Shown piece by piece: positions 2,644 through 62,641 of a DNA stretch of 64,000 nucleotides. Origin of the DNA: Candidatus Eiseniibacteriota bacterium (GTDB lineage Bacteria; Joyebacterota; Joyebacteria; Joyebacterales; Joyebacteraceae); the NCBI GenBank assembly GCA_030622115.1, contig JAUXGN010000009.1, positions 1 to 64,000 on the forward strand, written 5' to 3'. A program made the position numbers and the translations under genes. Below the pieces are notes generated by a model. That model saw nothing but the letters and a program-made list of their open reading frames with translations, was not told the DNA's origin and made no database searches. Each line of letters begins with the position of its first letter. Within the stretch, counting starts at the first letter, position 1.

Positions 2644-4893
2644 TCACTTCACGAGCATCATCTTGGACATCCTCGTCTCGCCACCGGCATCGAGGCGTAC
2701 GAAATACATTCCCGCACTCAGTGGCTCCCCGTCGCCAGCCGCACCGTCCCAACTTACCTTGTGCGGGCCCTCTGCCCGGATCCCGTCCTGGATCACGGCC
2801 ACTTCACGACCTGCGACGTTGTAGACGCCGAGCCGGACGTATGACTGCGTCGGTAACGAGTAGCTGATGGTCGTCACAGGACCGAACGGGTTGGGGTAGC
2901 TTCGCTCAAGCAGGAGGCCGGTCTCCGGTAGGTCGTCGCCGGGATCCACACTGTTGGCGCCGGCGAACTCATAGATTGCCACCTCGTGTCCGGCTAGGCT
3001 AAGACCCGTGATCTCGTAGGCCGGGCCGACCGTGATGTCGAGCGTATCGCCCGGATCGAGCAGGCTAGCGAGCGTGTGCTCGCCCAGCTCGAGGCTGACC
3101 GTCGATCCGGTCAGCGTGATGTTGTTTCGAGGGTTGGACGCGGTATTGGCCATGCAGAGGACCGTCTGCTGCTCGTGACCGCGAACGAACGCCATCACCG
3201 ATGACTCGGAACTCGCGAGCGGATCGTGAGTGCCTTGTCTCAAGGCCGGCGACTCGTTTCGCACATGGATCAGCCGCTTGTACCACTCGAGCAGCGAGCC
3301 CGGGTCAACCTCCTCGTCGGCGACATTGTACTCATGGTAGTTCCCGCTGATGTAGTTCCACGGCGAGCCCGTGGTGAACCCCGCGTTCAACCCATCGGTC
3401 CACTGCATCGGTGTGCGGATGTTCAGGTGGTCACCGCTCCCGACCATGCCGATCTCTTCACCGTAGTAGACGAACGGTATGCCCGGCAGGGTCATGTAGA
3501 TGCCCGCGGCGACGCTGGCCTTGCCCTCGTTCTCACCGAGGACGGTGAACGTGCGGTCCTGGTCGTGGTTGGTGAGGAACGTGGCGTACTGAAGATAGGG
3601 GTAGAGATGGTAGACCTGATCGGCCTTGCTGCTCACCCCGCTGGCGTCGCTCCAGTTGACCGCGTCGAGCATGGCGTAGGATAGATCGAACTCGAAGCAG
3701 ATATCCAGGCGGTCCTCCATCACATACTGGAGCACGGTGCTCGTGGAGGTCCATGCCTCACCGACGGAGAGAATGTCAGGCTTCACGCTCTTGACGTGCG
3801 TGTTGTAGTCCTGCCAGAACGAAAGCGTTGACGCTGTGTTCTGGAGCTGATCGCCTTCCTCGATGACGTAGAGCACGGCGTCGAGACGGAAGCCGTCAAC
3901 ACCGATGGTGTCGAGCCAATAGGTGGCCGTGTCGAACATCGAATCCTTCACAGCCTGGGTCTCGTAGTTGAGGTCAGGCATGCCGCTGTAGAAGAGCCCG
4001 TAGTACCAGCCCGAGTCGTCCCAGTGCCAGACGGTCTGTCCCCAAGGGCCGGAATCCCCCGGATCGCTTCCTGACCAGCGGAAGTAGTCGCGATAGGCCG
4101 GGTCGTTGTCGGCGGACGCGACGAACCACGGATGCTGGTTGGAGCAGTGGTTCATGACGTAGTCGATGATGACCTTGATACCGCGGGCGTGGGCCGCGGC
4201 AAGGAACGCCTCGAAATCGGCCATAGTTCCGTAGTCGGGATTGATGGAGCGGTACTCGACGGCGTCGTAGCCATGGTAGCTTGGGCTATCGTTGATGGGC
4301 ATGAGCCAGATGCCCGTGACTCCGAGGTCGTCGTCGGTGGCCGGGTCGCCGTCATTGAGGTAGTCGAGTTTGCTCGTCAGACCCTGGAAATCTCCAATCC
4401 CGTCACCGTCGCTGTCGTAGAAACTACGCACGAAGATCTCGTAGAAGACCGAGTCGTTCCACCATGAGAGTTGGTCGGGGTCGTAGCCGCCCCCAGGCGC
4501 GAGGTCGTTGTACCAGACGAGGATGGTGTCATCGCTCGCTGGCACGGTGTAGAAGCGGTTGTTTCCGACGCCGGGGAACTCCTCGCTGCCGTCCCACTGG
4601 CCGTTCAGACGGAACTTGAATTCGATCTGCTCCGACTGGGTGAAGCCGCCCACGGCGATCTCGTAGATGGTGTCGCCGTCGGCATCGGCCAGCGGTGTCA
4701 AGGGATCGGCGCCCCAGTCGTTGAACGTGCCGGTGACATCGACGAAGTCGCTGGCTGGATTGAAGTTGCCCAGCTCGACCTGGTAGGCCATGCGGACCTG
4801 GAACGTGACCTCCACTGCTCGGGCGTTGGTGGCGGTGAGGAGTGCTGCGGCGAGCACCACGAGCGTGAGTGCTCTCATCATGCTGTTGTTCAT
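2644..4893 (-). CDS. Secreted GH13 alpha-amylase family protein with FlgD-like C-terminal domain
   Basis: A 749-residue exported glycoside hydrolase acting on alpha-glucans outside the cell. After a signal peptide (ALTLVVLAAALLTATNARA) comes a beta-sandwich starch-binding-like domain (FVDVTGTFNDW, ~30-120). A GH13 barrel follows (~145-560): VFYEIFVRSFYDSDGDGIGDF is the usual start, with nucleophile Asp338 (GFRLDA), acid/base Glu379 (VGEAW) and third acid Asp444 (NHDQDR). A C-terminal beta domain and a FlgD-like sorting domain end the protein (PNPF, WDGAAGDGEPLSAGMYFVRL, MMLVK). All catalytic residues are present, so it should be active; amylase versus glucosidase or pullulanase cannot be decided. 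The ATG at 4893 follows AGGTGAGG. Confidence 0.93.
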   Translation of the reverse strand: MNNSMMRALTLVVLAAALLTATNARAVEVTFQVRMAYQVELGNFNPASDFVDVTGTFNDWGADPLTPLADADGDTIYEIAVGGFTQSEQIEFKFRLNGQWDGSEEFPGVGNNRFYTVPASDDTILVWYNDLAPGGGYDPDQLSWWNDSVFYEIFVRSFYDSDGDGIGDFQGLTSKLDYLNDGDPATDDDLGVTGIWLMPINDSPSYHGYDAVEYRSINPDYGTMADFEAFLAAAHARGIKVIIDYVMNHCSNQHPWFVASADNDPAYRDYFRWSGSDPGDSGPWGQTVWHWDDSGWYYGLFYSGMPDLNYETQAVKDSMFDTATYWLDTIGVDGFRLDAVLYVIEEGDQLQNTASTLSFWQDYNTHVKSVKPDILSVGEAWTSTSTVLQYVMEDRLDICFEFDLSYAMLDAVNWSDASGVSSKADQVYHLYPYLQYATFLTNHDQDRTFTVLGENEGKASVAAGIYMTLPGIPFVYYGEEIGMVGSGDHLNIRTPMQWTDGLNAGFTTGSPWNYISGNYHEYNVADEEVDPGSLLEWYKRLIHVRNESPALRQGTHDPLASSESSVMAFVRGHEQQTVLCMANTASNPRNNITLTGSTVSLELGEHTLASLLDPGDTLDITVGPAYEITGLSLAGHEVAIYEFAGANSVDPGDDLPETGLLLERSYPNPFGPVTTISYSLPTQSYVRLGVYNVAGREVAVIQDGIRAEGPHKVSWDGAAGDGEPLSAGMYFVRLDAGGETRMSKMMLVK

Positions 4894-5892: not shown

Positions 5893-7413
5893 ATGGACTG
5901 GCCGGAGGCCAGCGCGGCGCCAAACTTCAACGTCGTTGGGACCGATCCTAAGCTCGTCGATCCTGAAAACGGCGACTTCAAACCGAGCCCGGGCTCGCCG
6001 GCGGTCGGGTACGGGTGTCAGACGTTTCCCGCACGTGGGGACTTGCCGTTCGCGCGCGTGGCGTCCGTGGAAAGGCCTCTCGCGGAGGAGGCGTCTGCTG
6101 CCCGAGGCGGCGCGGATCGGTGGCCGAACGCAGGTTCGCATCCATCAGGTGGCGGTCGCTCGAGCATAGACGTCTCAGGAGCGATCGCGTTCGACACAAC
6201 CTGGGACGCCGACACGGTTCGCGTCGTGGGGAATGTCGCCGTCGACAACGGCATCACTCTCACCGTCGCGCCGGGCACGCGTGTCGAGTTCGCCGATTTC
6301 TATCGCCTTGCTGTCCACGGGCGGTTGCTCGCTCTTGGCACAGCCTTAGACCCCATAGTCTTCACGACTGACGAGCCCGAGGCGTTCTCTCCGGATACCA
6401 CGAGAGCCGGTTCCTGGAACGGTATTCGCTTCCCCTGGACGAGTTCGATCAATGAGGAATCGAGGCTCGACCACTGTGTTGTCGAATACTCGAAAGCGCT
6501 CGGTGACGAGCCATGGGGTGGAGCACTCTCAGTGATCGGATTCTCCAAGCTCATCGTGCGGAACAGCATCTTCCGGAACAACGTCGCTGACTATGGTGGC
6601 GCCGTCTTCTGCTCGCAGCAAGCGGCCCCGGTATTCGCAGGGAATCTGATTGAAGGAAACTGCGCCTTCTTGCGGGGCTCTGCGATCTACGTTCTCTACT
6701 CCTATCCGGATCTAACCAACTGCACGATCGTCTCAAACGGGTGTCTGAACGAGGAGCCGTTCGACGGGACCGGCGGGATCCACAATCACATCTCGAAGCC
6801 GCGGACGAAAGGCTCCATCGTGCGGGACAATAGCTCCGCGTACTTCATCCCAACACAGATTCTCGAGGGCAAGGGGTACTACACAACATTCTGCGACGTG
6901 GAGTATGGCCACGCCGGAGAGGGGAACATCGATGAGGACCCGTTCTTCGTCGGGTTCGGCGAGCATCCCTTTGCACTCCTCGATGACTCGCCCTGTGTGA
7001 ACGCCGGGGAACCGGACACGTTCGAACTGTGGCTGTCTCCGGTCGACATCGCGGGGGAGACGCGCATCGATGGAAGCAGGATCGACATCGGCGCGTACGA
7101 AGGATCGGGCGGAACAGGCGTTGACGGTGTGATCGCCGAGACGCCGTTCCTTTCACCGAGCAGGCCTAATCCCTTCCGGCGCGAGACGAGGCTCGCGTTC
7201 TCGTCGCGCGGCGGGCCGGTGACCGCGTGCGTCTATGACGTCGCGGGGAGGAAGGTGCAGACGCTTCTCGATCGGATGGTCGGGCCGGGTGAGCAGGAGA
7301 TCCGGTGGGACGGGACCGATGACCGCGGACGGTGCGTTGCCTCGGGCGTCTACTTCTGCCGCCTCACGGTTGACTGCACAGAAGAGACGCGCAAGATGGT
7401 GCTGTTAAGGTGA
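5893..7413 (+). CDS. C-terminal part of the secreted beta-helix protein, FlgD-like end
   Basis: A 506-residue continuation in the same frame as the feature ending at 5883, with no ribosome site of its own. It has parallel beta-helix repeats (LTVAPGTRVEF, LDHCVVEYSKALGD, IVRNSIFRNNVADYGGAVFC, NLIEGNCAFLRGSAIYV, NCTIVSNG), then the common IDIGAYEG ending. A FlgD-like C-terminal sorting domain follows (SRPNPFRRETRLAF, VYDVAGRKVQTLL, IRWDGTDDRGR, ASGVYFCRL, RKMVLLR). Beta-helix proteins of this type are usually surface or extracellular, sometimes polysaccharide-active; no lyase residues can be assigned. If the TGA is real, this half lacks a signal peptide and would not be exported. Confidence 0.7.
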   Translation: MDWPEASAAPNFNVVGTDPKLVDPENGDFKPSPGSPAVGYGCQTFPARGDLPFARVASVERPLAEEASAARGGADRWPNAGSHPSGGGRSSIDVSGAIAFDTTWDADTVRVVGNVAVDNGITLTVAPGTRVEFADFYRLAVHGRLLALGTALDPIVFTTDEPEAFSPDTTRAGSWNGIRFPWTSSINEESRLDHCVVEYSKALGDEPWGGALSVIGFSKLIVRNSIFRNNVADYGGAVFCSQQAAPVFAGNLIEGNCAFLRGSAIYVLYSYPDLTNCTIVSNGCLNEEPFDGTGGIHNHISKPRTKGSIVRDNSSAYFIPTQILEGKGYYTTFCDVEYGHAGEGNIDEDPFFVGFGEHPFALLDDSPCVNAGEPDTFELWLSPVDIAGETRIDGSRIDIGAYEGSGGTGVDGVIAETPFLSPSRPNPFRRETRLAFSSRGGPVTACVYDVAGRKVQTLLDRMVGPGEQEIRWDGTDDRGRCVASGVYFCRLTVDCTEETRKMVLLR

Positions 7414-7592: not shown

Positions 7593-10355
7593 ATGAGGGC
7601 AACTGATGGTCTGAGAAGGTCAACCGCGGTTCTGGTGACCGTCGCTGTCGTGCTTGTGGCGGGCTTCGTGCCCGCTCATGCCCAGACCGCCATCCTCATC
7701 TCCGAGATGTGTGACCCGCACCAGAACTACCTGACTGACCGGTTCATCGAGATCTATAACGCGGGGCCCACGACCGTCGATCTGACCGACTGGACGCTCG
7801 TGGCCGTAGGGAACTCCGGCGATGTTTTCTCGTGGCCCCTCTCCGGGTCGATCGATCCAGGCGAAGCTCTGGTCGCGGGAGACGAGACGACGGTCATTGT
7901 GTTTCAGGTCGACTTCCCGCTGGAAGCATGGTCGAGCAACAACAGCCTTTGGAATGGGAAGGTGGGGGACGGGGCCAAGCTTCTCAACGCCGGTTCAGTT
8001 GTCGTCGACTACGCCGTCGTGACCGGAACGCACTTCGAGAACGAAGACTACGTGCGCAACGAAGGCATCGTGCTCCCGAACACGTCCTACGATCAGTCGG
8101 AGTGGACGGCGACTCCGGCGTCCTACCCGACGGACGGAACGCCCGGCACGCATTTCACCACGACACCACCTCCCGGACCGACGATCGTGAACATCGTAAC
8201 GGACCCCGAGGCGCCGCTTCCCGGCGAGCCGGTTGATGTTGCAGCGGACGTCTCCGACACCGTTGCCATCACATCCGTCTCTCTCTTCTGGGGAACCTCT
8301 CCTCTCTCGCTGACGAACGAGATCGCCATGTCGCTCGACGCGGGCGACACCTACGACACCGACACCTCCATTCCGGCCCAGTCCGCCGGCATCACCGTCT
8401 ACTTCAAGGTCCAGGCAATCAACGATCTGCCGGGAACGAGCGTCTCCGACGTCGAGAGCTACTCGCTTCCGTACACACTCACGATCGCCGAGATCCAGGG
8501 AGGCGGATCCTCATCACCCTACGACGGCTACGCTGCGATCACTTCCGGGGTCGTGACCGGGCGCTACAACTCGTACTTCACACTTCAGGACGGCACAGGC
8601 GCCCGTAGCGGCGTGTGGGCGAGGGGTCTTGCTGCGCCCACAGTCGGTGACACGGTTACCATCAGAGGGACCGTGACGGAGAGCGACGGCTTGAACACCG
8701 GCAACACCTTCATCGTGAGCGCCAACGTGCAGAGCTCCGCACCGGCAGCAGTAGTACCGACCGCAATCGTTGTCACGACGCTCGCGCTCTCGTCGGAGGA
8801 TTACGAGGGTGTGCTTGTGATGGTGGATGATGCCGAGTGCACGAACACGACTCTCGGCTCAGGAGAATGGGAGATAGACGACGGCAGTGGCGCCGGCCTC
8901 GTCGACGATCTTGGATACGCGTTCACGCCGACACTGGGAACGGTCTACGATGTTACCGGTCCGCTCGCGTACCGCGACAGCGGCTTCAAACTCGAGCCGC
9001 GTGATGCGGCCGACATCGTGTGGGCAGGTGACAACGCCGCACCCGAACTCTTCCAGGTCTACGCGACCGACGAGGCAACCGTGCTCGTGACCTTTACGGA
9101 GGATGTCGACGAGACGACCGCCGGAACGGTCACCAACTACACGATCGATGGCCTGACCATCAGCAATGCCGTGCGGGATGCATCGAATCACGACCAGGTC
9201 ATGCTCACCGTGTCTGCCATGTCGCCCATCAACTACACGCTCATTGTTGACGGTGTTGAGGACCTCTACTCGAACGCGATGGACAATGTGAGCTACAACT
9301 TCGACTACGTCGACATCACCATCCCTGCCGGCTACTACGACAGCGCCGAGGGACTGCTTGGTGAATCTCTGCAGGCGGCCCTTCACGCGATCATCGACAA
9401 CCACGCTGTCCAGACCTACCAGTACTCGTGGATAGCCTTCAGGAGCACCGACGACAAGCCCAACGGAAAGGTCTGGGACATGTACTCCGACGTTCCGGGT
9501 GGCGTGCCGCCCTACGAGTACACGTTCGGCATCGATGAGGGCGGAGTCGGTGGTGTGGAGGGCACCGGGTACAATCGCGAGCACTCGTGGCCCAGCAGCT
9601 GGTACGGGGGAGAGGTGTACCCGATGTACTCCGACCTGTTCATGATCTACCCGACCGACAACTTTGTGAACAATCAGCGCGGTTCCGATCCATACGGCGA
9701 GGTGGACTCGCCGAGCTGGACCTCCTTGAACGGGAGCAAGAGGGGTAACTGCTCGTACTCGGGCTACTCCGGTATCGCGTTCGAACCGATCGATGCGTAC
9801 AAGGGAGATTTCGCGCGGACATATCTCTACGTGACCTCACGCTACTATTCGGAGGACGCCGCATGGCCCGGGAGTGCCATGACCGACGGGGCTGATCTTC
9901 TGCCGTGGGCCGCCGACATGCTGCTCGAGTGGCACGTTGATGACCCGGTGAGCCGGAAGGAACTTGAGCGGAACGGAACCATCTATGCGATACAAGGGAA
10001 CCGCAACCCGTTCATCGACAGACCCGATTTCGCAGCTGCCTTGTATGTGACGACAGGCGTGGACGAGTTCGCGGAGCCGACGTTCACCCTTCACCAGAAC
10101 GCGCCGAATCCATTCAACCCGACGACGACCCTGAGCTTCTCGTTGTCCGCAGGTGCGGTCGTGGAGCTTTCCGTCCACGATGTCAGCGGGAGACACGTCA
10201 CAACGCTCGCGTCAGGCGAATTTGTCGCGGGGCGTCACGAAATCGTCTGGGACGGCCGGGACGCTGGTGGAGGCAAGGCCGCATCCGGTATCTACTTGTA
10301 CAGCTTGAAGATAGGGGGATCACACGAGCGCCGGAAGATGGTGCTTCTGAAGTGA
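7593..10355 (+). CDS. Secreted endonuclease I with lamin-tail domain and FlgD-like C terminus
   Basis: A 920-residue exported nuclease. A signal peptide ends near PAHAQ. A lamin-tail domain follows (ILISEMCDPHQNYLTDRFIEIYN, ~35-165), then Ig-like and OB-like regions (~200-480; SGVVTGRYNSYFTLQDGTG). Next comes an endonuclease I domain (~590-850) with the metal-finger core YNREHSWPSSW (His664) and YPTDNFVNNQRGSDPYGEV, as in EndA-type periplasmic nucleases. A FlgD-like sorting domain ends it (APNPFNPTTTLSF, VHDVSGRHVTTL, RKMVLLK). Active-site residues appear intact, so it should cut DNA or RNA outside the cell, probably for nutrient scavenging. The ATG follows AAAGGGG. It stands alone with its own extended -10 promoter. 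Confidence 0.92.
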   Translation: MRATDGLRRSTAVLVTVAVVLVAGFVPAHAQTAILISEMCDPHQNYLTDRFIEIYNAGPTTVDLTDWTLVAVGNSGDVFSWPLSGSIDPGEALVAGDETTVIVFQVDFPLEAWSSNNSLWNGKVGDGAKLLNAGSVVVDYAVVTGTHFENEDYVRNEGIVLPNTSYDQSEWTATPASYPTDGTPGTHFTTTPPPGPTIVNIVTDPEAPLPGEPVDVAADVSDTVAITSVSLFWGTSPLSLTNEIAMSLDAGDTYDTDTSIPAQSAGITVYFKVQAINDLPGTSVSDVESYSLPYTLTIAEIQGGGSSSPYDGYAAITSGVVTGRYNSYFTLQDGTGARSGVWARGLAAPTVGDTVTIRGTVTESDGLNTGNTFIVSANVQSSAPAAVVPTAIVVTTLALSSEDYEGVLVMVDDAECTNTTLGSGEWEIDDGSGAGLVDDLGYAFTPTLGTVYDVTGPLAYRDSGFKLEPRDAADIVWAGDNAAPELFQVYATDEATVLVTFTEDVDETTAGTVTNYTIDGLTISNAVRDASNHDQVMLTVSAMSPINYTLIVDGVEDLYSNAMDNVSYNFDYVDITIPAGYYDSAEGLLGESLQAALHAIIDNHAVQTYQYSWIAFRSTDDKPNGKVWDMYSDVPGGVPPYEYTFGIDEGGVGGVEGTGYNREHSWPSSWYGGEVYPMYSDLFMIYPTDNFVNNQRGSDPYGEVDSPSWTSLNGSKRGNCSYSGYSGIAFEPIDAYKGDFARTYLYVTSRYYSEDAAWPGSAMTDGADLLPWAADMLLEWHVDDPVSRKELERNGTIYAIQGNRNPFIDRPDFAAALYVTTGVDEFAEPTFTLHQNAPNPFNPTTTLSFSLSAGAVVELSVHDVSGRHVTTLASGEFVAGRHEIVWDGRDAGGGKAASGIYLYSLKIGGSHERRKMVLLK

Positions 10356-11673: not shown

Positions 11674-12471
11674 CTACCTGTACAGGGCCTTGACGCTCGT
11701 CCAGCTCGCGCTTTCAACCGGCGTTGTGTGCGCGCCTTCGATGATGAACGGGAGGCCTTGACCGTAGCCGTCGTCGTCTATGTAGGCCCAAGTGACTGTG
11801 TCGTCCACCGATTGCCACGCGTCGCCGGTATTGCCCTGGTTCCAGATCACGATGGGCGGAGCCCACGGGCCGGAGGTCAGAGTGCCGTCGGCCTGCCATA
11901 TGACGTAGTAGGTTCCCGGGCCGAGCGTTACCAGCACATCACATATGTTGGCCATGATCGGGCGATTCGTGCCGCCCGGGGCCGACTCGAGAGTTCGGTA
12001 CACCCCTGACCAGGCGGTTCCACTGAGCACGTCGGTCACCATATCGCCGAAGACAATCGTCGATGTCGGTTCGAACGGCGGACCGTCATAGATCAGAACG
12101 CGGTAGGCGGTGATCGTCGATGCCAGCGTGCTTCCTGTCTGATAGGCGAAGAATGTCATCGTCTCGATGTCCCACGTGTCGCCCACAGGTATTGTGAAAT
12201 CATCGGCCAGCCAGTTCTGGTATTCGAACTGATGTCCGTACCCATACATCCCCATGCCAAGGGTTGTGTTCTGAAGCATCGACTGGTCGGGTGCGAAGTT
12301 CATGATGGGGCCGTTGTCCCACAGGACGTCGCGGGCGCCCACCCAGACCACATCGGGATCATGTTGCTGATAGCCGGGTCCAGGAGAGAACCAGATGTTC
12401 TCATGACTCATCTCTGCCATCACGGGAACGAGGAGCGCGAAAACGAGAACTGCAGCAAGCAGTGCACGCAT
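11674..12471 (-). CDS. Exported protein of unknown function with SWG-type C-terminal tail
   Basis: A 265-residue protein with a signal peptide (RALLAAVLVFALLVPVMA). The body is rich in beta-strand patterns and aromatic residues (NWLADDFTIPVGDTWDIETMTFFAYQ, IYDGPPFEPTSTIVFGD, GTYYVIWQADGTL), resembling the carbohydrate-binding-like beta-sandwiches common in Eisenbacteria-like secretomes. I cannot name the family. It ends TTPVESASWTSVKALYR, a variant of the tail shared by five other loci here, with Thr in place of the usual Gly. The ATG follows AAGGGAG at good spacing. No enzyme motif is visible. The tail suggests surface placement, which is an inference. Confidence 0.8.
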   Translation of the reverse strand: MRALLAAVLVFALLVPVMAEMSHENIWFSPGPGYQQHDPDVVWVGARDVLWDNGPIMNFAPDQSMLQNTTLGMGMYGYGHQFEYQNWLADDFTIPVGDTWDIETMTFFAYQTGSTLASTITAYRVLIYDGPPFEPTSTIVFGDMVTDVLSGTAWSGVYRTLESAPGGTNRPIMANICDVLVTLGPGTYYVIWQADGTLTSGPWAPPIVIWNQGNTGDAWQSVDDTVTWAYIDDDGYGQGLPFIIEGAHTTPVESASWTSVKALYR

Positions 12472-22306: not shown

Positions 22307-22372
22307 CTATCTGTACATGGCCTTGATGGCTCCCCAGCTTCGTTCCTCGACAGCGTCGATCTCGACGCCGAC
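22307..22372 (-). pseudogene. Orphan SWG-type C-terminal tail (gene relic)
   Basis: The minus strand ends in LVGVEIDAVEERSWGAIKAMYR and a stop, a near-exact copy of the tail of the FG-GAP protein ending at 37120. Upstream, the frame soon enters sequence that reads badly and lies antisense to the promoter and start of the gene at 22556, so no body protein is left. It is therefore the last ~20 codons of a lost or truncated exported protein. The tail codons are not decayed, which suggests recent loss. Confidence 0.55.
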
Positions 22373-22468: not shown

Positions 22469-22497
22469 TTGTGTCGAGGGCGCCCTTGTGGTATAAT
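22469..22497 (+). promoter_or_regulatory. Promoter of the exported gene at 22556
   Basis: TTGTGT (22469-22474), a 17-base spacer and TATAAT (22492-22497), with TG one base upstream of the -10. The TGTGGTATAAT string is identical to that at 7473-7482. Confidence 0.7.
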
Positions 22498-22555
22498 TCG
22501 CTTGAAGGTGTTCAATGGACATGGAACTCCGCGCATGACTCCCCAGGAGGCCGCC

Positions 22556-23932
22556 ATGACACACACACGCCGCTCTCTCTTGACCGCTCTTCTGGCAGCC
22601 CTTGTCGCAGCCTTGTTCACAGCCTTGGGCCTCGCGGCGATTCAGCCGGAACGAGTTACGCCTACTACAATCCCAATCGATCCAATCCGCAACAACATCA
22701 TGCTCTGGTATGACCCAATCGATGAGAATTCGGAGGGCTGGACGCACGGAGACTACACGGCTGACATGGCAATCGAGTTCCATGTGGACGTGTACCACGC
22801 CCACAGCTCAGGTGAGTTCTCCTATTGGTGTGGCCGGATGGACCCCGCCTTCTCCGGCGGCGATGGGTACGGCAACTCGTGGGATCAGCGTCTGCTTCTT
22901 CCCTCGATCGAGCTTGGCAACACTGTAGTCGAACACCGCTCGTGGGGGAGCATCAAGGCGTCGTACAGGGTGGGTGCTGCGGGCGGCGAGGATGCTGAGC
23001 GCGACTCCGCCTCAGGGCGCGAAGATAGCCGTGGAACCGTGCCCGTGCTCACGTTCTCATACCGGCACGACTGCGAAGCGGGCTACGATTTCATCTGGCT
23101 TCAGGCGCTCGTGGATGGCAGTTGGGTGAATCTGCTCGATGGCTTCACCGGCGTGAGCGGCGGTTGGCAGGAATCCGGTGAGGTGCCGGTCGGGGACTTC
23201 GGTGATCCTCTGCATCTGAGATTCAGGTTCGTCTCGGATGGCACGTCGTCTGATGAAGATGGGGTCTACGATTCGGACGGTGGCGCGTTTCACGTCGACA
23301 ACATTCGCGTTTATGACTATGTCACCGGGGACGAGTTCTTTTCGGACGATGCCGAGGGTGGAACCGCTCAGTGTACGCCCTCGATCCCCGAGCCGGCCGG
23401 TGACTGGTGGCACATCCATGAGGACTACTGCTCGTCTGGGGCGTACGACTACGGACTGGACCCCTTCTGCTGGTGGTGCGGCGACGAGAGCGATTCCTCG
23501 CTAATTCCCCCGGGTCTCAGGAACTGGCTCCAGACCCCGTACATCGATCTCTACACCGTGTATGGCTACGCGCGCCAGTGCACATTCAGGTTTGCGCTTC
23601 ATCCGGAGGTGCCGGTTGGGCAAGGCGACCACTGGACCGAGGAGATCACCTGGGACAGCGGCGCGACATGGTATCTAGTGGGCACGTGGTGGGACGATTT
23701 CGGCGCGTGCAACGGTTTCGCCGCACATGGACTGTATTCAGGATTAGCATTCTACAACAACGGCACCGGACTCGCAGCGGCTCGATGGACCTTCTACACG
23801 GACGACGATGGATGCGGGCCGGGAGCGGCAGGTGCGGCCGGTATCTCGCTCGACCACACGTGGCTTGAGGCTGACCCGTATGGTCGCCGACGCTCATCCT
23901 CGTGGCAGCTCATCAAGGAGATCGCTCGGTAG
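22556..23932 (+). CDS. Exported beta-sandwich protein with internal and C-terminal SWG-like segments
   Basis: A 458-residue protein starting at the ATG preceded by AGGAGG (22545-22550), with a signal peptide (RRSLLTALLAALVAALFTALGLA). The body looks like paired concanavalin/MAM-like beta-sandwich domains of peptidase-associated secreted proteins (LTFSYRHDCEAGYDFIWLQ, LHLRFRFVSDG, GAFHVDNIRVYD). Residues 124-138 read VVEHRSWGSIKASYR, a complete SWG tail, followed by a Gly/Asp/Ser/Arg-rich stretch to about 161, where the beta-strand VPVLTFSYR resumes. The true C terminus (SSSWQLIKEIAR) is a degenerate version of the same tail. The internal copy looks like an insertion into a strand-loop-strand region. 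No enzyme motif is recognised. Confidence 0.75.
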   Translation: MTHTRRSLLTALLAALVAALFTALGLAAIQPERVTPTTIPIDPIRNNIMLWYDPIDENSEGWTHGDYTADMAIEFHVDVYHAHSSGEFSYWCGRMDPAFSGGDGYGNSWDQRLLLPSIELGNTVVEHRSWGSIKASYRVGAAGGEDAERDSASGREDSRGTVPVLTFSYRHDCEAGYDFIWLQALVDGSWVNLLDGFTGVSGGWQESGEVPVGDFGDPLHLRFRFVSDGTSSDEDGVYDSDGGAFHVDNIRVYDYVTGDEFFSDDAEGGTAQCTPSIPEPAGDWWHIHEDYCSSGAYDYGLDPFCWWCGDESDSSLIPPGLRNWLQTPYIDLYTVYGYARQCTFRFALHPEVPVGQGDHWTEEITWDSGATWYLVGTWWDDFGACNGFAAHGLYSGLAFYNNGTGLAAARWTFYTDDDGCGPGAAGAAGISLDHTWLEADPYGRRRSSSWQLIKEIAR

Positions 23933-24008: not shown

Positions 24009-24184
24009 GAGGGCACGATCGCTCGCTGCGTCAGCGTCATGACCTCCGACGCGACGGCGAACATCCTCTATTCGAGAAAGAGCGCGAGAAGGCCATCGGT
24101 GTGCTGGAGGACGCGGGAGTGACTCCTGGACCGGGGTGGAGTAGGTAGGTGAGGGAGACTAGGCGCCAGACAGGCGGTTCCATC
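24009..24184. other. Intergenic region with a possible coding relic
   Basis: One plus-strand frame ending at 24149 reads LFEKEREKAIGVLEDAG and then VTPGPGWSR before a TAG. This looks like a genuine C terminus but has no start or upstream body, so it may be a decayed gene end. Nothing else is recognisable. Confidence 0.25.
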
Positions 24185-24213
24185 TGGCGAGACGCACTTC
24201 CGTGTGGTATTTT
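24185..24213 (+). promoter_or_regulatory. Possible extended -10 promoter of the FG-GAP gene
   Basis: TGGCGA (24185-24190), a 17-base spacer, then TATTTT (24208-24213) preceded by TGTGG. The -35 match is weak; the TGTGGTAT context recurs before other exported genes. Confidence 0.45.
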
Positions 24214-24277
24214 GACATACAGTTCTTCCTCTCCCAAATCTACGCAGCCACAGACGTGTTCTCACGGAGGTGATTCC

Positions 24278-27034
24278 ATGTCCAGCCGTGCGCCCGTCCT
24301 TGTCACTGCAGCCTTGATTCTCCTGGCCGCGTCCTCGCTTCAAGCTGATCTACTCTTCGACGCCCGCCGCGACTTCTACGCGGGGGACTATCCGCGTGAT
24401 GTCGCGATCGGTGATTTCAATGGTGATGACCATCAGGACCTGGCGATTGTACTGAAAGATGACTGGAAGGTCGGGATCCTGCTCGGGAACGGTGACGGTA
24501 CGTTCCAGGAGATCGTGACCTACCAGACAGCGGCGGACTCGTCCGACGGCGAGTATCCATACAGCGTGGCCATCGGCGAACTCAACGGGGACGACTACGA
24601 GGACCTGGTCGTGGCCAACTGGGGCGACCACAACATTGGGTTCCTCATGGGCGACGGTGACGGCACCTTCGCGACCGCGGACACGACGATCGCAGGAGGT
24701 GGTCCGAACTGCGTCATCCTCGCGGATTTCAATGAGGACACCATCCTCGACGTGGTGACCGCCAACTGGTACCAGCACAACATCAGCATTCTGCTGGGTG
24801 ACGGAACGGGCGATTTCACTCGGCCGGCCGTGTGGCAGTACGCGGTCGGCAACAGCCCGTACACGGTCGCGGCGGGTGATTTCGATGAGGACGACGACCT
24901 TGATGTCGCGATTGCGAACTTCGACTCGGACAACGTTTCCATTCTGACAGGCAACGGAGATGGGACCTTCGCGGCGGCGGACTCCTTCGCCGCAGGCGAG
25001 GCGCCGCACGATATCGCTATCGCCGACTTCGATCACGACAACCACCAGGATCTGGTCGTGCCCAACCGCGACAGCGACGATGTGACGGTGCTCTTCGGAA
25101 ACGGGGACGGCACGTTCCCGACTAGTGCCACACTGATGACCGGTGACGCTCCCTACTCGGTCGTGACCGGCGACTTCGATGGGGACGACAACCCTGACTT
25201 CGCCGTATGCTGCCGATACGATCATGCTGTGTATGTCTATCTTGGTAACGGAGCGGGCGGCTTCGACTTTGGGACACCATACGGTGTCAGCGAAGAGCCG
25301 TACTCGATGGCCGTCGGCGACTTCGACGAGGACGACAACGAGGATATCGCTGTCGCGTGCCGCGGAGGAGAGGTTATCTCGATCCTCTATGGCAGGGGGG
25401 ACGGGACCTTCGTCGAGACACCGCGGTACGATTCGGGCATAGGTCCCGGGGACCTCGTCGTTGCGGATTTCGACGGCGACAACAACTTGGATATCGCCGT
25501 GGCGAACGGCGGTACGGAGGACGTCGGTATCCTGCTCGGGACCGGTAACGGGACTTTCGTCTACGATTCCGGGTTTGGCGCCGGCGACTATCCCGGCGCT
25601 ATCGTGGCCGGGCTTTTTGACGACGACGAGCATGTCGACATTGCGACGGCGGCAGGCAACGATCGGCGCGTGTCCGTTCACCTGGGCGACGGCGACGGCA
25701 CGTTCACGCCGGGGACCGGGTTCGATATCTCGTACCCCTATGGTCTCGTCTGCGCCGAGCTTGACGGGCGGGACGGGCCGGACCTGATCGTGCCGGGCGG
25801 GACGGCCCGCAAGATGTTCATCTACACGGGCAATGGCGACGGGACGTTCACGTCGGCGGGGTCGTGTACGACGGGAGGGGAGACGTGGTGGACCGCCCGC
25901 AATCCAGCCATCGGGGATTTCAACGAGGACGGGACTCCCGACATGGCGGTTCCGATCGGGGAGTACAACGTCAGCCAGCTCTCGATACTGCTTGGAAACG
26001 GGGATGGGACATTCGAGTTCGATGCGACGTACGCTAGTGAGGGCAGGGGTGGAGGGCTCGCCGACGCCGGGTACTTCGATGCGGATGACCACCTAGACGT
26101 CGTGATGACGAACGAGCACTCCAACAACGTCTCGATCTTTCTCGGCAACGGTGATGGGACTCTCGAAGCGGCCAGCGTGGAGACCGTCGGCATCGAGCCT
26201 TGGGACGTCGCCGCAAAGGACTTCGATGGAGACGGTCTGATCGACATCGCCGTGGCATGCAGCGAGGGGTGGAGCGGGATGGCGCTGCTTCTGGGCAATG
26301 GAGACGGCACGTTCAAGGATCCGGACCCGTACGGAACGGAGCAAGGATCCTTCTATCTCGACGTGGGTGACCTCAATGCCGACAGCCGGATGGACGTGAT
26401 CGTGAGCAACAACTGGTCGGACAGGGTTTCGGTCCTCATCAACATTGGCCCAAACACACCCGTCGAGCACGCGTTCTACGCGACGGCCCTGGAAGATGGT
26501 TCCGTCATGGTTCGGTGGGGGCTCGCCTCGTTCACCGATGCGCAGGCAATCCGGTTGTACCGGTCCGTGGCGGCGGACGGTCCCTTTGGCCTGCTCGTGG
26601 AAGAGGCGCTTCCGGCAGCAGCATTTGGGGGATTCAGGGACACCACCGTCTGGCCCGGCGGGACCTTCTGGTACGATCTCAGAGCAGTGCTTTGGGACGG
26701 TCAGGAGGAATCGATCGTTCACTTCCTGCCAAGTGCGACCGTAGGTGGGTCGCTGAGTCTCGCGATGCACCAGCCGATGGCAAACCCCTTCACCACACAG
26801 TGCGCGTTCACAATCGACGTCCCGAACCACACGGGGAATGTCCATCTGGCGGTCTACAATGCGCGAGGTCAGCTCGTAAGCACGCTCATCGATGAGCCGC
26901 TCCCGCGCGGCAGGCACCCAGTCGTCTGGGACGGTAGCGATTGGTCAGGGCACCAGTCGGCATCCGGTGTCTACTTCGTACGACTCGAGGTTGGCGGGGC
27001 GCACGCTGTGGGGAAGGCGCTGCTGCTGCGCTAG
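24278..27034 (+). CDS. Secreted FG-GAP/VCBS beta-propeller repeat protein with FlgD-like C terminus
   Basis: A 918-residue exported protein. The ATG follows CGGAGGTG, and the signal peptide is APVLVTAALILLAASSLQA. From ~25 to 730 there are about fourteen FG-GAP repeats, each with a calcium-binding DFNGDDHQDL- or DFDGDDNPDF-type loop and an ILLGNGDGTF strand. Seven-bladed propellers of this sort bind ligands or partners. A fibronectin-like segment (NTPVEHAFYATALEDGSVMVRW) and a FlgD-like sorting domain follow (VYNARGQLVSTL, WDGSDWSGHQSASGVYFVRL, KALLLR). The usual PNPF is ANPF here. It is probably a surface adhesion or scaffold protein. The tandem structure makes it prone to recombination. Confidence 0.9.
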   Translation: MSSRAPVLVTAALILLAASSLQADLLFDARRDFYAGDYPRDVAIGDFNGDDHQDLAIVLKDDWKVGILLGNGDGTFQEIVTYQTAADSSDGEYPYSVAIGELNGDDYEDLVVANWGDHNIGFLMGDGDGTFATADTTIAGGGPNCVILADFNEDTILDVVTANWYQHNISILLGDGTGDFTRPAVWQYAVGNSPYTVAAGDFDEDDDLDVAIANFDSDNVSILTGNGDGTFAAADSFAAGEAPHDIAIADFDHDNHQDLVVPNRDSDDVTVLFGNGDGTFPTSATLMTGDAPYSVVTGDFDGDDNPDFAVCCRYDHAVYVYLGNGAGGFDFGTPYGVSEEPYSMAVGDFDEDDNEDIAVACRGGEVISILYGRGDGTFVETPRYDSGIGPGDLVVADFDGDNNLDIAVANGGTEDVGILLGTGNGTFVYDSGFGAGDYPGAIVAGLFDDDEHVDIATAAGNDRRVSVHLGDGDGTFTPGTGFDISYPYGLVCAELDGRDGPDLIVPGGTARKMFIYTGNGDGTFTSAGSCTTGGETWWTARNPAIGDFNEDGTPDMAVPIGEYNVSQLSILLGNGDGTFEFDATYASEGRGGGLADAGYFDADDHLDVVMTNEHSNNVSIFLGNGDGTLEAASVETVGIEPWDVAAKDFDGDGLIDIAVACSEGWSGMALLLGNGDGTFKDPDPYGTEQGSFYLDVGDLNADSRMDVIVSNNWSDRVSVLINIGPNTPVEHAFYATALEDGSVMVRWGLASFTDAQAIRLYRSVAADGPFGLLVEEALPAAAFGGFRDTTVWPGGTFWYDLRAVLWDGQEESIVHFLPSATVGGSLSLAMHQPMANPFTTQCAFTIDVPNHTGNVHLAVYNARGQLVSTLIDEPLPRGRHPVVWDGSDWSGHQSASGVYFVRLEVGGAHAVGKALLLR

Positions 27035-27161
27035 GCGGGGGTATCCGAGGGCCGCGAGTCTTCTGTTCGACTTCGGCTTCGTTTCTTCGAACGGGACTTT
27101 TGTGAGACATGGGCGCAGTTGGAAGTGGGACTACGCATTCTGTTTGGAGGAGGTGACAACA

Positions 27162-28004
27162 ATGTACTTGCGCAAGTTACCGTGCACTCATGCGGCCGCG
27201 TTTGCCATCGCGGTCGTGCTCGCTGTCGCGCCGGCGTCCCTGGCGGGTGCGACGACCATCCCGCCGAGCCCCGCGGAAGCACAGACGCCCACCATCTGTG
27301 ACTGGCAGGCGAGCCCGGCAGCCGACGGCCCCCGCAACATCACGATCATCGAGAGTCAGAGCGGCGTGGGTGGTCACAGCACGGACGTCAAGTGGCAGAC
27401 AGTTGCTGTCAGCATGGGCCATGCTGCGACCATCGTAGATCAGAGTGCTCTCGACAGCATTGCCAACCTCAGTGGCACCGACATCCTCATCGTATCGTCC
27501 TCAGTCATCGAACTTCCCGCCGGCCACGTGCAGACCATCCTCCAGTTCGTGGAGAGCCACGGTCCGGCCTATCTGCAGGGCGAGTACCTCTCCACCCTCC
27601 CCGGGAATCAGGCCTTTGTTGAGATCGTCAACGGTCTTGGGGGTTCGTTCACTGTCTCGGGTACGATCTCCGGCGATCTAGAGCCCATGAATGTGCTCGG
27701 CTCCTTCGCCACTGATCCCAACGCGGTGCCGTCACTGCCGTTCTTCTGGTACGGGTGTGCAGGCACTGGCGACGCCACGATCGAGAACTTCCTGGAACAC
27801 GATGGCAACTACTTCGGTTGGGTCTTCACGCCGCCCGGCAGCCCCCGCGTGCTGATTCACACGACCGACCAGGATTGGGTCCAGAACATATACGGCAATC
27901 CCGAATCTGTAGCCCTGATGGAGAATATCCTGACCTACCTCGACGATGCGTACTCGCCAACTGAGAGGTCCACTTGGGGCGCCATCAAGTGGCGCTTTCG
28001 CTAG
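27162..28004 (+). CDS. Exported protein with a flavodoxin/amidotransferase-like fold and SWG-type tail
   Basis: A 280-residue protein with an ATG after GGAGGAGGTG and a signal peptide (AAAFAIAVVLAVAPASLAGA). The body alternates strands and helices: NITIIESQSGVGGHSTDVKW, ATIVDQSALDSIANLSGTDILIVSSS, VQTILQFVESHGPAYLQGEY, RVLIHTTDQDW. This resembles ThuA- or class-I-amidotransferase-like proteins that test whether a value lies beyond a date or limit, but no catalytic triad is convincing. It ends SPTERSTWGAIKWRFR, a variant of the SWG tail. It follows the FG-GAP gene by 127 bases on the same strand and is closed by a hairpin at 28028. The specific function is unknown. Confidence 0.75.
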   Translation: MYLRKLPCTHAAAFAIAVVLAVAPASLAGATTIPPSPAEAQTPTICDWQASPAADGPRNITIIESQSGVGGHSTDVKWQTVAVSMGHAATIVDQSALDSIANLSGTDILIVSSSVIELPAGHVQTILQFVESHGPAYLQGEYLSTLPGNQAFVEIVNGLGGSFTVSGTISGDLEPMNVLGSFATDPNAVPSLPFFWYGCAGTGDATIENFLEHDGNYFGWVFTPPGSPRVLIHTTDQDWVQNIYGNPESVALMENILTYLDDAYSPTERSTWGAIKWRFR

Positions 28005-35917: not shown

Positions 35918-35976
35918 CAGGATTCGCTGTCTCGAAGGAGCCCCGGTGCTACGCCGGGGCTTCGTCTTGTTTGTGC
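35918..35976. repeat. 59-bp direct repeat copy 1 with terminator hairpin
   Basis: This segment equals 37128-37186 at 58 of 59 positions. It contains AGCCCCGG / CCGGGGCT around a seven-base loop, followed by TCGTCTTGTTTG, an intrinsic-terminator layout on the plus strand. On the minus strand it encodes HKQDEAPA and stop, exactly the end of the MATE transporter at copy 2. The 1.2-kb interval between the copies holds the FG-GAP gene with the SWG tail. Confidence 0.8.
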
Positions 35977-36184: not shown

Positions 36185-37120
36185 ATGAAGGCGATAGTGA
36201 ATGTGTTGATGCTGGCCGGTCTGATTCTCTTGATCTCATCTGCAGCTTCAGCCGGCACTGTCTACTGGACGCCTGCGCATGAATGGGCTCCGCAGGGGCA
36301 TGCCTGTGCCATGGCGGCCGGAGACATAGACGGGGATGGGGATGTGGATCTGACATTCTTCTGTGGGCAACCCATGATGCAGTGCTGGAATATCGGTTCT
36401 CCCACAGAGCCTGTTTGGGAATTCGGTTCCTCGCCGTACGGGGGTGTTCCATTCTGCATTCACCAGAACGGTGGACTTGGAGATCTCGATGCTGACGGAG
36501 ATCTCGATCTCGTAATCACGTGTTGGTACGATGACTTCGTGCGCTTCTACTGGAATGTTGGGACGCCGCAGAACCCAGCATGGGAGGCAGACCTGTCGGT
36601 TTTCGAGGGTGTGCCGATATCGGGGGGCTATGGTAGTCCCAGGCTCGGGGACATGGATGGCGATGGAGACCTGGACGCCATGCTGGGCAGCTGGTCCGGC
36701 AGGATACGCTATGCCCGGAATGTGGGCACAGCGACCTCGCCTTCCTACGAATATGTTGGGTGGGTGGACGGCATTCCACAGGCTGACGGCTCCAGCCCAC
36801 AGATAGCTCTGGGCGACATCGATCTCGACGGCGATCTGGACATAGTCCAGGCAGCCGTGGACGCAGGGGTCTGGTGCTTCGAGAACGTTGGGACACCACA
36901 GTTGTTTGAGTTTGTAGCGAACCCGGACATGATCACGGGAGTGAGCATTCCACCCCCCGGTCACGGTTGGGGTGTTAGCCTCGTGGATATCGATGCGGAT
37001 GGAGATCCGGATATGATCTTGGCAGTCAACTGGGGGGGGGAGAACCTCCTCTTCCTGAACGGCGGCGCGACCCCGGTCGAGCGCACAAGCTGGGGTGTGA
37101 TCAAGGCCATGTATCGCTAG
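36185..37120 (+). CDS. Exported FG-GAP repeat protein with SWG-type tail
   Basis: A 311-residue protein with ATG after GGAAGGGG and a signal peptide (VNVLMLAGLILLISSAASA). It has five to six FG-GAP-like repeats with calcium-loop motifs (GDIDGDGDVDL, GDLDADGDLDL, GDMDGDGDLDA, GDIDLDGDLDI, VDIDADGDPDM) and strands such as FYWNVGTPQNPAWE. It is a beta-propeller of the type used for adhesion or ligand binding. It ends GATPVERTSWGVIKAMYR, the best example of the SWG tail and almost identical to the orphan tail at 22307. The gene lies between two 59-bp direct repeats, so it may be a movable or duplicable unit. Confidence 0.85.
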   Translation: MKAIVNVLMLAGLILLISSAASAGTVYWTPAHEWAPQGHACAMAAGDIDGDGDVDLTFFCGQPMMQCWNIGSPTEPVWEFGSSPYGGVPFCIHQNGGLGDLDADGDLDLVITCWYDDFVRFYWNVGTPQNPAWEADLSVFEGVPISGGYGSPRLGDMDGDGDLDAMLGSWSGRIRYARNVGTATSPSYEYVGWVDGIPQADGSSPQIALGDIDLDGDLDIVQAAVDAGVWCFENVGTPQLFEFVANPDMITGVSIPPPGHGWGVSLVDIDADGDPDMILAVNWGGENLLFLNGGATPVERTSWGVIKAMYR

Positions 37121-37127
37121 CACAGAA

Positions 37128-37186
37128 CAGGATTCGCTGTCTCGAAGGAGCCCCGGTGCTAGGCCGGGGCTTCGTCTTGTTTGTGC
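37128..37186. repeat. 59-bp direct repeat copy 2 with terminator hairpin
   Basis: The second copy of the repeat at 35918-35976, differing at one base in the hairpin loop. It starts eight bases after the FG-GAP stop and includes the last codons of the convergent MATE gene, whose stop lies in the loop. It probably terminates transcripts from both sides. Confidence 0.8.
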
Positions 37187-39590: not shown

Positions 39591-41531
39591 TTACCGCAGC
39601 AGCACTGTCTTACGCGATTGCCGCCACTCGCCGGCGTCCGCGCGTATGAGGTAGATGCCCGATGCCACGAGCTCGTCGTGGTCATCTCTACCGTCCCACG
39701 GCACAGCATGGTCGCCCGCGCTCAGAACCTCTGAGACAAGAGTTCTCACGAGCCTGCCGGAGACATCGAACACAAGCACTCTGGTCGCGGTCGGCGTCGG
39801 CAGCGACAGCTGGAGCACTGTGGCGTCGGTGAACGGGTTGGGCATGCCAGGAGCAAGCGCGAAGCACATCGGACCGGACGGCACCGATGTGCCGCTCAGG
39901 GGACATGCACTCATGTGGATGGTGAGATCATCTTGCACCGTTCCACCGGTTATGCCTGGAAGGTCGCGCGTGTTGAATGTGAGGACCGCTTCGTAGACAA
40001 TGCCCGTAGGCGCCGAGGTGTCGTCGAATACCACATCGTAGTCCGCGGGTGTAGATCCGACCTCTTGGGCGGAGAATCCGCCGACAATCGAGAAGAATCC
40101 TCCTCCGCCCACGATCTCGGCATCGTAGATTTCAAGCAGCGCCTGAAGGCTGTCGAACTCGAAGTTGTGGATGTTGATTTCCGCCTGGTCGAAATCGCCG
40201 ACGTCGTGTGTACCGAAATCGAGAGTGTTGACAAGGAGGATCTCTGCTGCCGCGAGTGACGGCGCGGCGTGGTTGAGTACCGTTCCAGAGAGGGCCACGC
40301 TCGCCGACGGCTGGTCGACGTCATTCGACGACACCAGTAGATAGCCTGCTTGCACGCCGGCTGAGGAAGTATCCATCGAAATCGTGTGCCCACTGCTTTC
40401 TCCGGAGGGCTCAGAGAAACTACCGGCGGGAGCTGTGAAACCGGAAGGCGCACTGAACGAGTAATCCAGGTCGTCCGCGGGTGAGATGGCGGAGTTGCCG
40501 ACAGAGAGGATCTCCTCAGCGGTCGCACCGACGATCACCTCGCCGAATGCCAGCGACGATGCGCAGTCTAGCTTCGCCGGCACCTGGAGGTCGAAGTAGA
40601 CTGGGATATGATCGGCGGCTTCGTGAAGCGCGTCGGCGATGACGGCCCCGACTGCGTAGTTCGTGCCGTAGTTGATGGCTTGGTTCAGGTGACCACCGTC
40701 GTTGCCGTAGGCAACGTGGCTTCCGGAGACGTACGAGAGGCCGTCGCCGTCGTCGAGTGCGTACGAGATGAGGAGTTGGTCGAAGCGGTCGTCCATTCCG
40801 CCCGTTGCGCCTCCACCGAACTGCGTTGTACGTGGAGACTGCGTGTGGATATCTCTGAACGAGTAGCTGTCGTGCCAAGACCCGGGTCTGTTGATGGGGT
40901 CCTTCACTCGACCGTTGTTGTTCGCTTCACTTCCCACGAACTTCTGGTACGCGCTCTCGGAACTCGCCCTGATGTTGAAATCACCGGCGATGATGAAGTG
41001 AGTATCGGGATCGTGGTTGTTCGTGTGGTTTCGGAGTATGGTCGCCTCGGTCAGGCGCTTCGTCTTGTCCGTCGAACTGGACCCGGCCTTCAAGTGGAGA
41101 GAGTAGATTGTGAGCTCTGCATCAGACGAACTGTAGCCGACAGGACGGAGGACATACTCGGAAATGTTCCTGAGGGCCGTTGATATCTCCTGGTGTGAGA
41201 TGTAGTCCACGGTGGCCGTGCGGTAGAAGAGAGCGTTGTCGGTATCGTAGCCGTTCACGAACGGGCCTGCGGCATATGTTCCCGGTACCGTGTAGTTCAG
41301 GATGTCGTCCAGGAACTGGTTCGTGCCTGTCTGGCTAAGCATCTCCTGCACGACGATTATGTCCGCATCGAGTTCGTCCATGACCGTTACGAAGTCGTCT
41401 TCACGGGCCGAGCCCGTCGAGCCGGGGAAGTTCAGCACGTTGTAGGTAACTACCCTCAGGCCGAGCGCCGTCTGGGGAAGAAGGGTGACGAGCAGGAGCG
41501 CCACCAGTGTCAGGGCTTTGCCGTATCGCAT
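39591..41531 (-). CDS. Secreted endonuclease/exonuclease/phosphatase-family protein with FlgD-like C terminus
   Basis: A 646-residue exported protein. Signal peptide ALTLVALLLVTLLPQTALG. The EEP domain (~25-325) has LRVVTYNVLNFPG, DADIIVVQEML (metal Glu), LHLKAG, FIIAGDFNIRAS (the GDFN motif) and AADHIPVYFDL (final Asp-His). Catalytic residues are present, so it is probably an extracellular nuclease or phosphodiesterase. Next come Ig-like beta-sandwich repeats (LAFGEVIVGATAEEIL, LDFGTHDVGDFDQAEI), typical of choice-of-anchor modules. A FlgD-like sorting domain ends it (MPNPFTDATVLQL, VFDVSGRLVRTL, WDGRDDHDELVASGIYLIR, KTVLLR). Confidence 0.92.
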   Translation of the reverse strand: MRYGKALTLVALLLVTLLPQTALGLRVVTYNVLNFPGSTGSAREDDFVTVMDELDADIIVVQEMLSQTGTNQFLDDILNYTVPGTYAAGPFVNGYDTDNALFYRTATVDYISHQEISTALRNISEYVLRPVGYSSSDAELTIYSLHLKAGSSSTDKTKRLTEATILRNHTNNHDPDTHFIIAGDFNIRASSESAYQKFVGSEANNNGRVKDPINRPGSWHDSYSFRDIHTQSPRTTQFGGGATGGMDDRFDQLLISYALDDGDGLSYVSGSHVAYGNDGGHLNQAINYGTNYAVGAVIADALHEAADHIPVYFDLQVPAKLDCASSLAFGEVIVGATAEEILSVGNSAISPADDLDYSFSAPSGFTAPAGSFSEPSGESSGHTISMDTSSAGVQAGYLLVSSNDVDQPSASVALSGTVLNHAAPSLAAAEILLVNTLDFGTHDVGDFDQAEINIHNFEFDSLQALLEIYDAEIVGGGGFFSIVGGFSAQEVGSTPADYDVVFDDTSAPTGIVYEAVLTFNTRDLPGITGGTVQDDLTIHMSACPLSGTSVPSGPMCFALAPGMPNPFTDATVLQLSLPTPTATRVLVFDVSGRLVRTLVSEVLSAGDHAVPWDGRDDHDELVASGIYLIRADAGEWRQSRKTVLLR

Positions 41532-61291: not shown

Positions 61292-61319
61292 TTGTCCTGT
61301 GTGGGAGCGATGGGCGTAG

Positions 61320-61411: not shown

Positions 61412-62641
61412 ATGAGGATTGCCAATCGTGTGAACGTGTGCGTCATTGCTGCCGCGTTCGTTGCTGTGGTCGCCGTTCCGGTTGGGGCCGTCATCTACAC
61501 AGTCAGTGCCGATGGTCTCGGGGATTTTTCGACCATCCAGGCGGCGCTCGATATCGTAGTCGGCGGTGACATCATCGAGCTGACCGACGAGACATTCACC
61601 GGAGACGGCAATCGGGACATCGTCGTGCCCTCGGTAAGTGTGACGATACGCTCGCAGGGAGGAGATCCGGCCGCCTGCATCATCGACTGCGAGGGAAGCG
61701 CGCGCGCGGAGCACCGCGGGTTTCACTTCACCACGACCGGAAGCGAGACAGCCCGGCTCCAGGACATTGGGATCATCAATGGGTATGTGACGACGGATGG
61801 CGGTGGAGGTATCTGGGTCCAGGGCGCCGATCCGGATCTGGTCAACTGCATCGTGGCCCAGTGCACGGCGGTGGGCGGCGTCAGATATGGCGGAGGTCTC
61901 TATGTAAGTAACATGGGCAGCCCTTGGGTTCAGGACTGCACCTTCACAGGCAATACCGGGGACTACGGTGGGGGCGTTGCCGTGTCTGGTGGGGGCGGCT
62001 TCTACGAGAGGTGCACGATCATCGACAACGAGGCCACGGGCATAGCGGGCGGCCTCTACACATCCTCCGTCGGCACAATGGAGTTCAGCGATTGCGCGAT
62101 CGTCAGCAACGTTGCACTCAGAGCGGGAGGTGTCCGGCTGTCGGGCTACCAGCCGCTTCTGACCGATTGCGACATCAGCCGGAACGAGGCGACCACGAAC
62201 TACGCAGGCGGACTCTGGCTCCAAGCGGGTTCCGCTGTCGGCTGCACCATCGTCGACAACGCCACCGCTCAGGATGGCGGGAACGTCTACTGTAGTGCGG
62301 GCACTGGCACCCTCACAAACTGCATCATCGCCTTCAGCGAGAGCGGCGAGGGTGTCTACGCGACCGAGGGCTATCTTCCGACGATGTCGTGCTGCGACGT
62401 ATACGGCAATGCGGGGGGGGGCTACGGCGGCAGTCTTACTGACCAGACGGGCCTCGACGGCAACATTGCCGAGAATCCGCAGCTCTGCGGGTTGGACATA
62501 GCCGACTACCGGCTGTTCGACACGTCTCCGTGCCTTCCCGGAGGCAACGACTGCAGCGTGCAGCTGGGCGCCTACGGGCAGGGCTGCGACTCGCCCGTGG
62601 AGAAGATGAGTTGGGGACGCGTGAAGTCGATGTGGCGGTAG
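61412..62641 (+). CDS. Exported parallel beta-helix protein with SWG-type tail
   Basis: A 409-residue protein with ATG after AAGGAGG and a signal peptide (VNVCVIAAAFVAVVAVPVGA). The start of the mature part (YTVSADGLGDFSTIQAALDIVVGGDIIELTD) and the repeats (LVNCIVAQCTAVGG, VQDCTFTGNTGDYGGGVAV, ERCTIIDNEATGIAGGLY, FSDCAIVSNVALRAGGVRL) are those of right-handed beta-helix proteins related to polymorphic outer-membrane or pectate-lyase-like folds. Catalytic residues are not evident. It ends DSPVEKMSWGRVKSMWR, an SWG-type tail with Trp in place of Tyr. Probably on the cell surface. Confidence 0.88.
   Translation: MRIANRVNVCVIAAAFVAVVAVPVGAVIYTVSADGLGDFSTIQAALDIVVGGDIIELTDETFTGDGNRDIVVPSVSVTIRSQGGDPAACIIDCEGSARAEHRGFHFTTTGSETARLQDIGIINGYVTTDGGGGIWVQGADPDLVNCIVAQCTAVGGVRYGGGLYVSNMGSPWVQDCTFTGNTGDYGGGVAVSGGGGFYERCTIIDNEATGIAGGLYTSSVGTMEFSDCAIVSNVALRAGGVRLSGYQPLLTDCDISRNEATTNYAGGLWLQAGSAVGCTIVDNATAQDGGNVYCSAGTGTLTNCIIAFSESGEGVYATEGYLPTMSCCDVYGNAGGGYGGSLTDQTGLDGNIAENPQLCGLDIADYRLFDTSPCLPGGNDCSVQLGAYGQGCDSPVEKMSWGRVKSMWR

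Follow-up and report, generated by a model that had tools for sequence, protein, structure and literature searches.

A short portable C-terminal tail on unrelated exported proteins of FCB-type bacteria, a candidate post-Sec sorting signal

The window analysed here is a stretch of 64,000 nucleotides from an uncultured seep bacterium. Its GC content of 60.5% agrees with the 59-61% of Candidatus Effluvivivax (PMC11323493), and its source was assigned to the phylum Candidatus Effluviviacota by inference. A preliminary description of this DNA had reported a short conserved peptide of 14-17 residues at six loci together with a degenerate form at one further gene end, and all seven copies were re-located in the sequence at the places claimed (Table 1). 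The consensus had been placed at the extreme C terminus, and all the protein bodies had been described as having signal peptides. The terminal position was confirmed for all window copies but the one at 22925-22969, which is internal, and the signal peptide for all but the orphan copy, whose open reading frame (22307-22804, minus strand) lies divergent to the gene with the internal motif and is probably the last piece of a lost gene. The FG-GAP tail gene ending at 37120 is flanked on both sides by a 59-nt direct repeat (35918-35976 and 37128-37186, 98% identical) with a terminator-like hairpin, as if it were a duplicated or inserted cassette. A second direct repeat of 299 nt (82% identity) lies at 2249-2547 and 10654-10952, with smaller repeats beside it at an equal spacing of about 8.4 kb, and an Rfam ALIL pseudoknot (RF01497, 55.8 bits), a frameshift signal known from IS3-type elements, was found at 60956-61066 on the minus strand.

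Table 1. Tail copies in the window and genes that end in a domain like type A of the type IX secretion system (T9SS)
Feature	Position	Strand	Remarks
Exported protein without tail	2644..4893	-	FlgD_ig/T9SS-A-like C-terminal domain 2686-2868
Protein with T9SS-A-like C-terminal domain (7219-7362)	5893..7413	+	Body matches tail-bearing beta-helix proteins
Protein without tail	7593..10355	+	FlgD_ig/T9SS-A-like C-terminal domain 10122-10307
Tail TTPVESASWTSVKALYR	11677..11727	-	End of gene 11674-12471 (beta-sandwich, signal peptide)
Orphan tail AVEERSWGAIKAMYR	22310..22354	-	Ends ORF 22307-22804, no signal peptide
InhA/MAM-like exported protein	22556..23932	+	Motif internal; terminal tail degenerate only
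Internal copy VVEHRSWGSIKASYR	22925..22969	+	Within loop insert of about 37 residues
Degenerate terminal tail SSSWQLIKEIAR	23894..23929	+	End of gene 22556-23932
FG-GAP protein	24149..27034	+	T9SS type A-like FlgD_ig domain 26798-26989 replaces tail; comparison case
Tail SPTERSTWGAIKWRFR	27954..28001	+	End of gene 26892-28004
FG-GAP propeller protein	36152 or 36185..37120	+	Signal peptide; tail TPVERTSWGVIKAMYR at 37070-37117
Exported protein without tail	39591..41531	-	FlgD_ig/T9SS-A-like C-terminal domain 39633-39815
Tail SPVEKMSWGRVKSMWR	62591..62638	+	End of beta-helix gene 61205-62641

We searched for the tail with the pattern W-x-x-[IVM]-K-x-x-aromatic-R, in its strict form followed by a stop codon, and used the reversed pattern as a control. 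The strict pattern matched 50 times in the window's own genome (2.63 Mb) while the control did not match at all, and five matches fell in the window compared with none in 30 order-3 Markov copies of it. Dropping the stop requirement raised the count in the genome to 64; of the 14 additional matches nine are trailed by 1-12 residues, three are truly internal and belong to one protein family only, and two, on contigs C50 and C83, are probably due to chance (only the C50 match was read). The motif is therefore not mostly found inside proteins, since 59 of the 64 matches end the chain or leave at most 12 residues after them. The consensus of the 50 strict copies is [TS]-P-V-E-x-[TS]-[ST]-W-[GTS]-x-[IVM]-K-[ASG]-[LM]-[YF]-R. 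Because W, K and R and the residue classes at two further positions were preset by the pattern, only the free positions count as independent evidence, and these are strongly conserved (P in 44, V in 46, E in 43, S/T in 49 and G in 43 of 50), with A present at another in 35 of the 50 copies. TAG is the stop codon of 39 of the 50 tail genes.

The codons of the tail differ synonymously between copies, as the preliminary description had noted for the window and as we also saw across the 50 copies of the genome, where four Gly codons follow the W and six Arg codons end the peptide. Since synonymous sites vary freely, selection acts on the peptide. These codon data already contradict the idea that the peptide is encoded by chance by a mobile repeat that inserts its DNA at the ends of genes. 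The orphan copy, which has no gene, and the single family with an internal copy could be read as traces of such an element, but the DNA shows no conservation beyond its codons, nor any irrespective of frame, and almost all copies sit in frame at gene ends, leaving this explanation a negligible probability.

The tails of this genome are carried by at least 21 unrelated body clusters (E<1e-4), so that no single homologous domain family lies upstream of them. Pfam matches among the bodies include beta-helix, FG-GAP, cleaved adhesin, InhA-MAM, lamin tail, CBM20 and pectate lyase, and five tail proteins carry an NCBIfam choice-of-anchor J domain, a name that NCBI gives to domains that are combined with a wide variety of sorting signals at the C terminus. 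A signal-peptide-like start was recognised heuristically in 42 of 46 testable tail genes, compared with 15 of 33 other genes in the window, many of which encode membrane proteins. Neither of the outcomes that could have undone the proposal of a portable tail for sorting, processing or anchoring, namely a mostly internal motif or the end of one domain family, was observed; the tail is a portable peptide under selection that is found on exported proteins and is mostly, not strictly, terminal.

The residues [ST]-P-x-E form a classical helix N-capping box. An AlphaFold model of a small FN3-tail family from other phyla (mean pLDDT 87.8) consists of a signal helix, an FN3 sandwich with a core pLDDT above 90, a flexible linker and a C-terminal helix at residues 119-130 with a pLDDT near 70. 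The tail is predicted from this model to be a C-terminal helix on a flexible linker, with [ST]PVE as its N-cap. A hydrophobic and basic C terminus exposed on such a linker might also serve as a quality-control tag for a periplasmic protease or chaperone, but a destabilising tag would be unlikely given the strict conservation of the tail on many secreted families over great evolutionary distance. The internal use of the motif argues against it as well, and we regard this reading as highly improbable.

This internal use is confined to an InhA/MAM-like family in which nine members bear a terminal tail and three diverged paralogues, the window gene 22556-23932 and two genes on contig C42, instead carry the motif in one loop, in the form T-[VT]-V-[EQ]-x-x-S-W-G-x-I-K-x-x-Y-R, and have no normal terminal tail. 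The AlphaFold model of the window protein (mean pLDDT 62, below 50 in the motif region) tentatively shows a flexible loop in which the motif tends to a helix, a low-confidence picture too weak for detail. The tail is thus relocated as a unit and requires no free C terminus, and binding is favoured over cleavage. Processing by cleavage, one of the roles first proposed, is accordingly less likely than binding.

These observations also bear on the possibility that the tail is cleaved by a new sortase-like enzyme, in the manner of PEP-CTERM and exosortase. The tail does resemble PEP-CTERM, GlyGly-CTERM, MYXO-CTERM and LPXTG signals in being a short, sharply conserved C-terminal homology shared in many copies by unrelated signal-peptide proteins, including choice-of-anchor bodies. 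However, those signals combine a motif with a transmembrane helix and a basic end and are handled by a dedicated membrane or surface transpeptidase, whereas the tail has no membrane segment. The profile of the 50 copies, in which the motif reaches the last residue, shows no LPXTG-type motif with a hydrophobic helix, and the motif is not followed by a transmembrane helix or a basic cluster. Further, cleavage would split the three proteins that have the motif internally and have lost the terminal copy. We therefore consider a cleaved tag very unlikely. The tail matches no known signal family among those searched, and our search of the literature found no paper that mentions its peptides; it is filed here among C-terminal sorting signals, in no named family.

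All 20 genomes of the window's own phylum carry the tail, in 23-79 copies each. In a second phylum it occurs in 78 of 80 genomes, with up to 37 copies each. This second phylum, that of genome G044, is inferred to be the Eisenbacteria because many Eisenbacteria records appeared in our scan of named sequences. In 38 other panel genomes, tail counts were at the level of the control. Among the matches listed in the named scan, matching contigs were found in Candidatus Effluviviaceae, and further matches came from Ignavibacteria, Hymenobacter, Adhaeribacter, KSB1, Calditrichota, Delongbacteria, Cloacimonadota and Zixibacteria. The published description of the Effluviviacota does not mention sortases and contains no search for the tail (PMC11323493).

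In these other FCB-type phyla, the intact match among those listed is mostly one protein of about 140 residues that consists of a signal peptide, an FN3 domain and the tail, and ends in RTWGSIKAMFR. An alignment of 31 such proteins has seven invariant columns, one body residue and the W, G, I, K, F and R of the tail. A profile search recovered full-length members in G020 and G026. Effluviviacota genomes such as G007, G013 and G006 gave full-length matches too, but weaker ones; the G013 homologue (C138:2575-2940) has two in-frame TAG codons and is either a pseudogene or affected by a sequencing error. We found no Pfam or NCBIfam model for the family, and PDB matches to its fold were general FN3 or beta-sandwich folds only. 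Its gene neighbours, some of them named by eye, give no shared function (SpoIID, Maf, MatE, lysylphosphatidylglycerol synthase-like and RuvB/QueA-type genes). In many lineages there is one copy of this small protein, which recalls a subunit of an envelope complex. This would fit a tail that is an anchoring or docking helix for an envelope partner, such as a periplasmic scaffold or outer-membrane protein, with no crossing of the outer membrane and no T9SS, and the occurrence of the motif in an internal loop fits a binding motif as well. However, the bodies that bear the tail are mostly of kinds typical of surface or extracellular proteins (beta-helix, FG-GAP, choice-of-anchor J, cleaved adhesin and pectate lyase), and some of these families carry T9SS-like domains in the same genome. 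A docking helix is thus unlikely, if less so than a cleaved tag.

Within the window, the FlgD_ig matches are protein ends that are T9SS type A-like. The whole genome has 111 FlgD_ig matches compared with about 60 tails, and the sole overlap seen was a weak FlgD_ig match that falls in a tail ORF of contig C16. For seven tail proteins the genome also encodes body homologues in which a T9SS-A-like end replaces the tail, and none of these tail proteins or homologues carries both. In 46 tail proteins scanned, no match was listed for TIGR04183, PF18962, TIGR04131, PF13585 or PF13860. The tail and the T9SS-type domain therefore nearly exclude one another.

The tail also co-occurs with SprA, the T9SS translocon. 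In the window's genome, an SprA_N match (G000:C74:85760-86539, E 4.6e-23) lies in a frame of 1969 aa, whose neighbours look by eye like ordinary housekeeping genes. SprA_N was found in 17 of 20 genomes of the own phylum, missing only from three at 57-78% completeness. In the second phylum 67 of 80 genomes have it, as have 20 of the 24 named genomes from other lineages that bear the tail, and in the panel it is present in 3 of 3 other tail-bearing genomes compared with 4 of 38 without the tail. Co-occurrence with one candidate processing gene family would, according to the preliminary description, support the proposal, and SprA supplies this in part, being present in nearly every tail-bearing genome. 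It is not exclusive to them, given the four SprA-positive panel genomes without a strict-pattern tail, and any role for it is putative; conversely, several near-complete second-phylum genomes with tails (G084, G126 and G139) gave no SprA_N match. As both traits follow FCB ancestry, the link is an association and not proof. Clustering of tail genes near FlgD_ig (T9SS-type) genes in the own genome was not significant (p about 0.06-0.10), and none of the genes adjoining them was identified as an adaptor gene.

The known T9SS signals are beta-sandwich domains (PMC10202324), and the tail resembles those of type A or B neither in sequence nor in structure. The type A domain (TIGR04183, PF18962), read by the PorV shuttle, is like the tail a post-Sec C-terminal signal of many unrelated proteins in T9SS-bearing bacteria that ends with a basic residue, but it is an Ig-like beta-sandwich of 70-100 residues with five motifs (PMC10202324), whereas the tail is helical, far shorter and unrelated in sequence. 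In Porphyromonas gingivalis, export needs no more than the final 22 residues of one known T9SS signal (PMC4804311), which makes a short signal plausible. Each kind of T9SS signal has a dedicated shuttle protein of its own (PMC12618676), and type B (TIGR04131, PF13585), a large beta domain read by PorP/SprF shuttles, sets a precedent for another class of signal with a separate reader. Type B domains are usually gene-linked to their shuttle, while no gene-linked shuttle was seen for the tail.

There is good support for the tail as a portable, helical signal for sorting after Sec export. We lean slightly towards a new class of such short signals whose receptor is most likely a member or partner of T9SS. 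In this mechanism, [ST]PVE would cap an amphipathic helix of roughly four turns, with W, I/V, L/M and Y/F as its hydrophobic face and K and R as charged contacts. The body would fold in the periplasm after Sec export while the tail hangs on its flexible linker, and a periplasmic or outer-membrane receptor would read the helix, binding rather than cutting it, and deliver the protein to the cell surface or the outer membrane. Most likely this receptor would lie within or alongside T9SS, as the SprA translocon with a PorV-like or PorP/SprF-like shuttle, and the tail would take the slot that the Ig-like T9SS C-terminal domain holds in other proteins of the same genome. The most economical mechanism is that T9SS, or a shuttle linked to it, reads the tail, and we propose this tentatively as quite possible.

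The main alternative is a separate receptor. Here the tail would be a fully separate outer-membrane sorting signal, ancestral to FCB bacteria and expanded in two phyla, with no terminal or cleavage requirement. The ancestral state would be kept on one small FN3 protein in most FCB lineages, while Effluviviacota and many Eisenbacteria would have extended the tail to 20-80 cargo proteins. We hold this to be possible, though less likely than not.

If the sorting-signal reading is correct, the last 16 residues alone would identify a great many of the proteins that two little-known phyla export, and one conserved small protein across FCB-type bacteria would be recognisable in the same way. A helical signal would join a T9SS field made up of beta-sandwich signals and would point to a putative receptor. 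Cultured Hymenobacter and Adhaeribacter strains carry the FN3-tail protein and thus allow a laboratory test of the idea that does not depend on the uncultured host.
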